From NCBI GenBank assembly GCA_024680915.1, contig JAILBN010000064.1:1-51316 (forward strand): DNA of 51,316 nt, written 5' to 3'. Made by a program: the position numbers and the translations under genes. The notes beneath the pieces were generated by a model. That model was not told the origin of the DNA. It did no database searches and was given only the letters and a program-made list of their open reading frames with translations. This stretch comes from Treponemataceae bacterium. Its GTDB lineage: Bacteria; Spirochaetota; Spirochaetia; Treponematales; Treponemataceae. This document shows positions 29,935-33,302 of the stretch, piece after piece (position 1 is the first letter of the stretch; the number at the start of each line of letters is the position of its first letter).

Positions 29935-30657
29935 TTACAGCACACTCTGCAAAAACTGTTTTGTGCGCTCGTTCTCCGGATTCTCGAAAATCTTATCCGG
30001 ACTTCCTTCCTCAAGAATGATACCATCGTACATAAAAAGAATACGGTCAGCCACCTCACGGGCAAAGCCCATCTCATGGGTGACGCAGATCATGGTCATA
30101 CCCTCATCAGCAAGGTCCTTCATTACATTAAGAACCTCGCCCACCATCTCCGGATCCAGGGCAGATGTAGGCTCGTCAAAAAGCATAACATCCGGGTTCA
30201 TGGCAAGAGCCCTGACAATGGCGATACGCTGCTTCTGACCGCCGGAAAGGGTGGAAGGATATACATTGGCTTTCTCCGGCAGCCCGATACGCTCCAAAAG
30301 CTCCATGGCTCTTTTCTCTGCCTCTTCTTTTGTGGCAAGCTTAAGGGTCACAGGCGCAAGAGTTATGTTCTGCATAACCGTCAGATGGGGGAAAAGGTTG
30401 AAGTGCTGGAAAACCATACCCATTTTCTGCCGGTACTTGTCTATATCAGCCTTTTTGTCAGTTATGTCGGAGCCTTCAAAAAGGATGGTTCCAGCGGTGG
30501 GCTTCTCCAGAAGGTTGAGACAGCGGAGGAAAGTACTCTTCCCTGAGCCGGAAGGACCTATGATTACGACCTTCTCACCTTTTTGTATGGTGGTCGTTAT
30601 ATTCTCTAAAACAACAAAATCTTTGAAAGATTTTTTCAGATTTTTAACTTCTATCAC
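29935..30657 (-). CDS. Amino-acid ABC transporter ATP-binding protein (GlnQ-like)
   Basis: A 240-residue ATPase of the polar amino-acid type: Walker [11 protein letters not shown]-loop [13 protein letters not shown], signature LSGGQKQR, Walker [15 protein letters not shown] and His in VTHEMGFA. The start is GTG and overlaps the permease gene by 14 bases. Third gene of the operon with the permease and the permuted binding protein. Confidence 0.92.
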
Positions 30658-31312
30658 TTTTTGCCATCCTCTTCTCTAACATACCGAAAAGCTTTGTGAG
30701 CCCAACAGTAAGGATAAGATATATAATCGCGCAGGTAAGAAGCGGAATCCATGCGTTATAGGTAGCATTACGTATCATGTCGCCGGCTTTGGTAAGGTCG
30801 GTCACGGCGATAAAGCTGGCCACGGAGGTCTCTTTTATAAGGACTATGAACTCACTGGCATAGGTGGGCAGTACAGCTTTTATAGCCTGGGGAAGGATTA
30901 TCTTGCGCAGGGTCTGCCAACGGCTCAAGCCCAAGGAACGGCCTGCCTCCATCTGCCCAATATCCACGCCCTGGATACCAGCCCTGAGGATTTCAGTACA
31001 ATAGGCACCGGAGTTTATTCCATATGCAAGAATGGCCACCAGAAGCCGGTCCATTCCCAATGGGGCAAAAACGACGAAATAGAAAATCATCAGCTGAGTG
31101 GCCAGGGGAATACCACGGATAACTGTGGTATAAAGCTCGGAAATGCCCCGTAGTATCTTTTTTGTGGAGATTTTCATCAGGGCGAAAAGACAGCCCAGAA
31201 CGGTTCCTATGAGGAGGGCACATACGGCTATAAGGACAGTGACTCCCAAGCCCTGGAAAATCAAATGCCAGCGTCCGCCGGCTATCATTGTATCGTAAAT
31301 AGATTGAAACAT
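30644..31312 (-). CDS. Amino-acid ABC transporter permease
   Basis: A 222-residue HisM/GlnP-type permease. The hydrophobic segment [25 protein letters not shown] leads, and [17 protein letters not shown] plus [23 protein letters not shown] (read in pieces) are the EAA loop that docks the ATPase. [18 protein letters not shown] follows. It lies between the binding protein and the ATPase on the minus strand. Confidence 0.92.
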
Positions 31313-31436: not shown

Positions 31437-32210
31437 TTATTTGCGTACTATGACAACCTGCTTGGAAGCATAATAAGCATCTGAGAAATCAACATTCTTC
31501 TTGCGCTCTTCTGTCACTGACATACCAGCAGCGATAAAATCAATGGCGCCGGAAGCAAGAGCAGGAATAAGGCTGTCGAACTCCATGTTCACAACCTCAA
31601 GCTTTTTGCCGTAGTCAGCTGCGATTCTCTGGCCCATGGTGATGTCGAAGCCTACGATATCAGCACCCTCAACATACTCAAAGGGAGGGAAGGCGGCATT
31701 TGTACCCAGCTTAACGATTTCTGTACCAGAAGAGGCGATAGCGGCAGGAATGGTGATGTTGCCGTCAACAGGCATAAAGGCGTTCACAAGCTTCTCGTAA
31801 TCACCATTGGCTTTCATATCGGCAATGGTTTTGTTTATTGAATCCAAGAGCTCTTTGTTCCCCTTTTTGATTGCTATGGCATATTCCTCAATTGCCAGGT
31901 CAAGATCAACTATCATCAGGTCAGAGTTGCGCTTTACGATCTCCTTTGCAGGAAGCTCATCAAGAACGATAAGATCAATGGCACCGTTCTTCAGGTCAAG
32001 GGCGGCATCCATACCAGTCTTGAAGCCTACGACCTTGGCATCCTTTATCTCTTCGGTAGCGAACAGCTCACCTGTGGTACCTGTCTGAACACCAATCTTA
32101 CGGCCTTCAAGATCAGCTGCCGTACTTATCACGACTTTCTCTTTTTTTCCACCTGCAAAAAGTGCACCGGCAACAAGAAGCAGACATACAACTGATAGTA
32201 TTTTTTTCAT
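31437..32210 (-). CDS. Circularly permuted amino-acid solute-binding protein (SBP_bac_3)
   Basis: A 257-residue periplasmic binding protein with a cleavable signal peptide (about 1-19; no lipobox Cys before GGKKEK). The domain halves are in swapped order. Residues 30-146 (STAADLEGRKIGVQTGTTG, LDLKNGAIDLIVLDE, EEYAIAIKKGNKELLDSIN, DYEKLVNAFM) are what normally forms the C-terminal half; residues 164-257 (EIVKLGTNAAFPPFEYVEG, GFDITMGQRIA, FDSLIPALASGAIDFIAAG, MSVTEERKKNVDFSD, KQVVIVRK) are what normally comes first. A linker (147-163) joins the old C- and N-termini. GGAGG is 5 bases before the ATG. The operon context says amino-acid uptake. Confidence 0.9.
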   Translation of the reverse strand: MKKILSVVCLLLVAGALFAGGKKEKVVISTAADLEGRKIGVQTGTTGELFATEEIKDAKVVGFKTGMDAALDLKNGAIDLIVLDELPAKEIVKRNSDLMIVDLDLAIEEYAIAIKKGNKELLDSINKTIADMKANGDYEKLVNAFMPVDGNITIPAAIASSGTEIVKLGTNAAFPPFEYVEGADIVGFDITMGQRIAADYGKKLEVVNMEFDSLIPALASGAIDFIAAGMSVTEERKKNVDFSDAYYASKQVVIVRK

Positions 32211-32414: not shown

Positions 32415-33302
32415 TTATTTTTTCCGGCGGAAAAAGGAAAGCTTGGTTTCGCTTATCACGACGGCTATGAACATGAGGACACAGCCCACGATTCCCCGGG
32501 GCGGTATAATTTCCCCTAGGAAAATCACGCCCGAAAGGGCACCGAAAACAGCCTCAAAGGACATGAGGATGGCCGCCAGAGAGGGAGCAAGATATTTCTG
32601 GCAGACAGTCTGCAGGGCAAAAGCAACCATTGTGCTGAGGAGCCCCAGATAAAGCATTCCTGAAACCACATCCCAGCGTCCCAGAACGCTCCACTTCATT
32701 TTCCCGTCAATAAAGGGAGCCGTTATCCAGGACAGAATGGCGGCCACTATAATCTGAAGGAGAGCCAATAGCACAGGATCATCGTCCTGAGACCAACGGG
32801 CTATGAAAATTATCTGAAGGGCATAGCAGAAGCCACAGATAAGAGTAAGAACATCGCCTTTATTCATGGACAGGTCTCCTTCAAGGGACAGAAGGCCTAT
32901 GCCTGTGACAGAAAGCACAGCCGCCACCAGGCTGAAAACATCGGGGCGGCGTTTTATAAGGATCCAGTTCAAAAAGGGTACCAGTATGACGTAAACGGTG
33001 GTAAGGAAGGCATTCTTGCCAGCGGTGGTATAGTTGCAGCCTATGGTCTGGAAGGCGTAGGCCAGGAAAAGGAAGACTCCTATCCCCACACCGTGGATAA
33101 GCTCTTCTTTTTTCATGCGGATAAGCTTTTTTATGAACACAAGGGACATAACAAGCCCCGCAATAGTAAAACGGAAAGCCATCATGTGGATGGGAGGCAC
33201 ATAATCCAGGGAGTTCTTGACCACGGCAAAAGCCGCTCCCCATATAACAGTGACCAGAAGAAGCCCGGCGGATGCGGAAAAGGTTACGAGTTTTTTGTTC
33301 AT
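32415..33302 (-). CDS. EamA/DMT-family transporter
   Basis: A 295-residue protein with about ten hydrophobic helices arranged as two EamA repeats (LLLVTVIWGAAFAVVKNSLDYV with PPIHMMAFRFTIAGL, then GDVLTLICGFCYALQIIF with SFEAVFGALSGVIFLGE). Family members export metabolites or amino acids; the substrate cannot be read. It ends in a basic FFRRKK tail. There is no clear ribosome binding site before the ATG. Confidence 0.88.
   Translation of the reverse strand: MNKKLVTFSASAGLLLVTVIWGAAFAVVKNSLDYVPPIHMMAFRFTIAGLVMSLVFIKKLIRMKKEELIHGVGIGVFLFLAYAFQTIGCNYTTAGKNAFLTTVYVILVPFLNWILIKRRPDVFSLVAAVLSVTGIGLLSLEGDLSMNKGDVLTLICGFCYALQIIFIARWSQDDDPVLLALLQIIVAAILSWITAPFIDGKMKWSVLGRWDVVSGMLYLGLLSTMVAFALQTVCQKYLAPSLAAILMSFEAVFGALSGVIFLGEIIPPRGIVGCVLMFIAVVISETKLSFFRRKK

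Follow-up and report, generated by a model that had tools for sequence, protein, structure and literature searches.

A circularly permuted amino-acid-binding protein of Treponemataceae and the likely return of some relatives to the normal order

An amino-acid substrate-binding protein (SBP) gene with its two halves in swapped order was examined in a 51,316-nucleotide stretch of Treponemataceae DNA (the whole analysed sequence, hereafter the window). We consider it very likely that its product is a permuted SBP of a type I ABC importer, which originated by duplication, probably in Clostridia, spread to Treponema and was followed there by one or two later reversions; binding and transport data are lacking. 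Also likely, but less so, is the more general proposition that hinge 1 of SBP_bac_3 proteins has been a site of recurrent permutation, with more than one origin and mostly through tandem SBP arrays, and that in Treponema it is reversible in place, leaving a linker relic. If true, nature would here have undone a circular permutation, in a case resolved at the sequence level. Natural circular permutants are usually known from distant relatives, in which history and function have diverged. Here, orthologs that share the same transporter partners, and once the same locus, differ in chain order, and permuted, reverted and tandem-intermediate forms are all extant today.

Organisation and predicted fold of the permuted protein

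A first-pass annotation made from the sequence alone had located the gene correctly but left its strand unstated; it lies on the minus strand, starting with an ATG at position 32210. The permease and ATPase genes of an ABC importer sit immediately downstream (Pfam) and an EamA-family transporter gene precedes it. The features referred to below are the following:

31437..32210, minus strand: permuted amino-acid substrate-binding protein gene, 257 aa plus stop codon
32215..32220, minus strand: Shine-Dalgarno-like GGAGGA ahead of the ATG
32154..32210, minus strand: signal peptide MKKILSVVCLLLVAGALFA, residues 1-19, from the sequence, with the cleavage site inferred
31764..32129, minus strand: residues 28-149, the normal C-terminal part (lobe 2 and the C-terminal helices of lobe 1), based on Pfam, phmmer and the match to TmArgBP domain 2
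31722..31763, minus strand: residues 150-163, 14-residue linker GNITIPAAIASSGT from the old C-terminus to the old N-terminus
31440..31721, minus strand: residues 164-257, the normal N-terminal part (lobe 1), ending in the hinge strand ASKQVVIVRK
30644..31312, minus strand: partner permease (BPD_transp_1), 222 aa, PF00528, E 1.7e-27
29935..30657, minus strand: partner ATPase (ABC_tran), 240 aa, PF00005, E 2.7e-40
32415..33302, minus strand: EamA-family transporter (Pfam), used as a synteny marker

The protein conforms to SBP_bac_3 in its homology over both halves and in the adjacency of an importer permease and ATPase, and departs from it in the canonical N-to-C order. Pfam reports the SBP_bac_3 match (PF00497) in two stretches (122 bits, E 1.8e-35), and phmmer searches against PDB chains, which matched many amino-acid SBPs, assign residues 163-257 to the N-terminal half and residues 27-149 to the C-terminal half of the same single-domain proteins. 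For AncQR (4zv1), residues 166-257 align with chain positions 12-104 (87 bits) and residues 27-143 with positions 108-228 (70 bits), and TmArgBP (6svf) is matched in the same swapped order (84 and 68 bits). By these alignment scores the swapped-order match is far beyond chance. The top phmmer match, which spans the junction, is the GlnPQ SBD1-SBD2 tandem, as expected because the window protein is a permutant. No NCBIfam family scored above cut-off for the protein. Pfam and phmmer hence agree with the first-pass annotation that the halves are swapped after one signal peptide, and the linker it quoted is present in the sequence, with a motif, G-x-[IV]-x-[IV]-P, that is conserved across permuted proteins.

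The signal peptide lacks the lipobox cysteine, a lipobox pattern being found in 109 of 140 distinct permuted relatives, and the permuted SBPs of the genus relatives (L006-L009) are likewise without the cysteine of most orthologs. In this genus the permuted SBP may accordingly be soluble in the periplasm and not a lipoprotein.

Structure prediction, proposed as a check in the first-pass annotation, gave a confident AlphaFold2 model of the permuted protein (81 permuted homologs as input; pLDDT 96.6, pTM 0.90), including the linker blocks (pLDDT 94-96). Model residues 3-87 match TmArgBP domain 2 (6gpm; Z 12.8, 37% identity) and residues 142-232 match domain 1 (6gpc; Z 11.4, 45% identity), so that the halves correspond to two domains of one protein in swapped order. 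A model of the canonical-order Treponema ortholog L116 (pLDDT 93.5) aligned sequentially to solved amino-acid SBPs with Z up to 32.6 over 217 residues, compared with at most 12.9 for the permuted model; a difference in topology thus separates proteins whose lobes are approximately 65% identical. For the permuted model the top sequential alignment is to OpuAC (Z 12.9 over 201 residues, rmsd 4.8), the cut sites not having been compared residue by residue. The Z scores of approximately 10-11 that this model gave against canonical SBPs were not read as whole-fold similarity, since they partly reflect lobe pseudo-symmetry and both aligners used, Foldseek and VIA-align, are sequential. A two-lobed type II fold is predicted on the strength of the AlphaFold confidence and the half-by-half matches, without a permutation-aware superposition. 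Sequence and structure-model evidence also agree with the earlier placement of the cut near the interlobe hinge; from topology and secondary structure we infer that it falls in the first interlobe connection, leaving one covalent crossover instead of two.

Arg236 in lobe 1 and Asp84 and Thr45 in lobe 2 are invariant or near-invariant among permuted homologs, and presumably bind the alpha-carboxylate and alpha-amino groups of the ligand as in GlnH-type proteins. We propose that the window protein serves as periplasmic SBP to a type I ABC importer whose substrate is a polar amino acid, the exact ligand being unidentified, and that circular permutation has opened its SBP_bac_3 (type II) chain at the first interlobe hinge. 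Once mature, the chain would start in lobe 2, make a single crossing at the second hinge to reach the C-terminal helices of lobe 1, pass through the conserved linker joining the old termini into the rest of lobe 1, and end at the cut hinge strand, so that both new termini would lie at the hinge. The lobes would close on the ligand with the usual alpha-amino-acid clamp formed by these three residues, and the loaded SBP would dock on the adjacent permease and ATPase.

Selection and distribution

Estimates of dN/dS for the permuted gene against two congeners were 0.033 and 0.043, with 0.01-0.04 for the separate halves and 0.16-0.21 for the linker, all of them rough as dS is near saturation. Together with the operon partners these values indicate a working importer component, in the absence of binding or transport data. 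The earlier suggestion that the gene is probably functional, with an ordinary permease and ATPase next to it, is thus upheld to that extent by the Pfam assignments (PF00528, PF00005), the intact reading frame and operon and purifying selection. A broken or non-functional remnant, be it pseudogene or decoy, is highly improbable: apart from the unusual order of its halves nothing favours it, and it conflicts with an intact reading frame preceded by a Shine-Dalgarno-like site, the intact operon, dN/dS of 0.03-0.04, conservation in more than 100 species, the invariant ligand-clamp residues and the confident fold. We rejected it on purifying selection and on the number of orthologs in the family.

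Near-full-length permuted orthologs occur in all seven genus genomes. For the family, the match table gives a count of about 126 among 274 genomes, including single-contig genomes and isolates (Treponema bryantii and T. lecithinolyticum). We give practically no credence to an assembly artefact fusing halves of two genes; the genome of the window is indeed fragmented (134 contigs), but the same order recurs throughout the genus, in isolates and in single-contig genomes, and these independent assemblies rule misassembly out.

The distribution extends beyond the treponemes. Permuted relatives are carried by other spirochaete families, 47 of 248 genomes of a Clostridial family match at E up to 1e-32, and among 30 Clostridial loci fetched all those with both lobes in one frame are permuted. 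Among 150 genomes from a gammaproteobacterial family, 17 have more divergent permuted forms. In the trees the permuted Clostridial forms are basal with the Treponema forms nested among them, suggesting, by inference, horizontal transfer into Treponema. The permuted form is therefore widespread, in Treponema and in Clostridia of the gut, not a treponemal curiosity, and probably of Clostridial descent; an origin confined to Treponema was rejected given the relatives in Clostridia, Gammaproteobacteria and other spirochaetes. The first-pass annotation had supposed that other treponemes might share the order and recommended searching spirochete genomes for it; the family counts confirm the supposition, which falls far short of the actual range.

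Origin of the permutation and return to the normal order

Fusions of the form (lobe 2-lobe 1)n-permease, with n = 1 to 4, were found in Gammaproteobacteria and Treponema, and triple-SBP fusions in Clostridia. The following are located by locus:

L107:1333-4434: Clostridial triple-SBP permease fusion, 1034 aa
L108:3883-6927: Clostridial triple-SBP permease fusion, 1015 aa
L303:1266-2894 (G000:C43, about 5.7-7.4 kb): divergent permuted SBP-permease fusion

L107 and L108 each encode three lobe 2-lobe 1 units and then the permease. Between units 2 and 3 the joint reads VIIV-FDDE-IDSVDDLIGKTIGVQ, which has the canonical length for a lobe 1-lobe 2 connection, and the two units show 85-87% amino-acid identity, with 85% nucleotide identity in L107. 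Read from the sequences, this is a living duplication intermediate formed by recent tandem duplication of the permuted unit. The duplication model (PMC3320104) predicts a chain holding both permuted and canonical protein, as these chains do. Duplication followed by loss of both outer halves, the route put forward in the first-pass annotation, is supported by the Clostridial polyproteins. These contain the tandem intermediate for which it had also advised looking; among the Treponema loci inspected, none showed such an intermediate consisting of this gene alone.

The window's own genome encodes a second, divergent permuted SBP (27% identity) at L303, arranged as lobe 2-lobe 1-TMD (n = 1) in a 554-aa open frame. 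Four tandem permuted units with one permease are present in a gammaproteobacterium (1246 aa; L298:680-4417, minus strand) and in a Treponema (at least 1109 aa, running off the contig; L299:2-3328, plus strand); if the permease dimerises, such fusions would provide eight binding domains per transporter. Permuted forms are spread over several clades of the trees, and a test of one common origin, with permuted plus revertant rows in a single clade, speaks weakly against it (AU p 0.012, with long branches present).

Reversion was not raised in the first-pass annotation, and some treponemes nevertheless appear to be back in normal order. A normal-order version of the same protein, 60-68% identical per half, is encoded in 16 Treponema genomes, in operons that keep the same partners (permease 68-76%, ATPase 72-76% identical). 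The single-unit permuted gene was not found in these 16 genomes, several of which are incomplete. A tree of the lobes places the canonical Treponema group inside a group of nine permuted and six canonical rows (support 99/93), and forcing all permuted rows together is 36.5 log units worse (AU p 0.0086, in a test with long outgroup branches). The same grouping is recovered from the permease and ATPase, neither of which is permuted (SH-aLRT 99, AU p 0.00046).

The canonical-order Treponema proteins end in C-terminal tails of 11-13 residues, such as GEIKVLSVEDL and EGEIRIPVIEGLE, which resemble permuted linkers (e.g. GKIKIPAIEAKSGN and the consensus G-x-I-x-[IV]-P); in the canonical relatives from Clostridia the tail is 0-6 residues long, usually 0-3. 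It is conceivable that the tail is ancestral and not a linker relic, a possibility disfavoured by the tail-less outgroups and by both trees. The EamA gene neighbours the permuted gene in many treponemes and the canonical-order gene at L130, and L130 shares with the permuted locus L231 the same upstream order of EamA (54% identical), glycogen phosphorylase (84%) and a glycogen-debranching-like gene (69%), the last two names being our own reading of the sequence. This shared locus was established for L130 only, the remaining canonical-order operons lying elsewhere. Permutation followed by in-place reversion is the best reading of these data, and rearrangement at the L130 locus the simplest account. 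The permuted L177 clusters with the canonical L130 at 96/96, and the number of reversions is therefore not fixed; besides one reversion, either another reversion or another permutation may be involved. A canonical-order relative in another spirochaete family (L170:4363-5130), which has an EamA gene close by in opposite orientation, is a possible outgroup for the reversion question.

Canonical order could instead be ancestral in the Treponema/Clostridial clade, with many parallel permutations and no reversion in the canonical Treponema clade. Cuts evidently tend to fall at the hinge, and permuted forms occur with canonical relatives in more than one clade, but we regard this history as unlikely, as on both trees many parallel permutations would have to share the cut residue and the G-x-I-x-[IV]-P linker, where the alternative needs one gain and one or two reversals, and the canonical tail looks like half of that linker. 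Still less probable is that a canonical paralog was brought into the operon by recombination or horizontal transfer in place of a rearranged permuted gene. Treponemes do possess other canonical SBPs (L003, L040); those seen in these genomes, however, are only approximately 30% identical, and the SBP in question nests in the permuted clade at the identity given above and shares the motif MTAT[DE]ERR. Under the preferred history of permutation and reversion, a tandem duplication that lost its outer halves, probably within the Clostridia, would have given rise to the order, and the operon would then have spread to Treponema, where one or two lineages returned to normal order, in one case without a change of locus. 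The C-terminal tail would be the half of the linker that survived.

Comparison with known permuted and canonical binding proteins

Permuted SBPs as such are already known, and no report of permuted SBP_bac_3 proteins or of the reversal of a permutation was found in the open-access literature, subscription papers being outside the scope. The absence of a known description noted in the first-pass annotation accordingly holds for SBP_bac_3, within that literature, and not for other SBP families (TpMglB-2, OpuAC/ProX). Such proteins escape notice in automated annotation, since a domain model can match one half or the other. The effect of hinge-located chain ends on lobe closure, folding and export is directly testable now, as are a benefit for tethering to lipid or permease and the reversibility of changes in fold topology.

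TmArgBP, GlnH and other SBP_bac_3 proteins (6svf, 4zv1, 1wdn) are homologous to the window protein half by half (approximately 37-45% to the TmArgBP domains), with the same clamp residues and operon type, and differ in that the window protein has swapped halves, joined old termini and new termini at the hinge. GlnPQ-type SBD-SBD-TMD fusions (6h30), in which tandem SBDs are joined to a permease, provide context for a phase shift; their SBDs are in canonical phase, whereas in the present fusions the phase is shifted, so that lobe 2 comes first and lobe 1 last, and the window protein itself is unfused. Potato type II inhibitors and saposin/swaposin likewise illustrate permutation by tandem duplication and phase shift (PMC2259423, PMC3320104), but are eukaryotic, small disulfide-rich or helical domains, and in the parts of those papers available no in-place reversion between orthologs is described.

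TpMglB-2 (Tp0684) of Treponema pallidum is a glucose-binding 'Type Ic' protein with a natural circular permutation, and is similarly a permuted ABC importer SBP present in Treponema and Gram-positive gut bacteria (PMC4990184). It has a type I fold, a sugar ligand and an unrelated sequence, in contrast to the type II window protein; its permutation moves the first three N-lobe strands and adds a crossover, whereas the window protein is cut at the hinge, and the available part of that paper reports no reversion. Membership of Type Ic was rejected, as the family matches are to SBP_bac_3 and type II structures and not to Type I (Cluster B)/MglB.

OpuAC and ProX are glycine-betaine-binding type II proteins related by circular permutation (CPSARST, PMC2395249), and OpuAC aligns with nearly the whole window protein. 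OpuAC-family membership was rejected on sequence, with no OpuAC-family Pfam match at E up to 1 and 13% identity in the structural alignment. These proteins belong to another family with another ligand, and their relation is by structure only, at <24% identity (PMC2395249), whereas the Treponema orthologs, at 60-68% identity, differ in order within one bacterial family, and one pair of them shares a locus.
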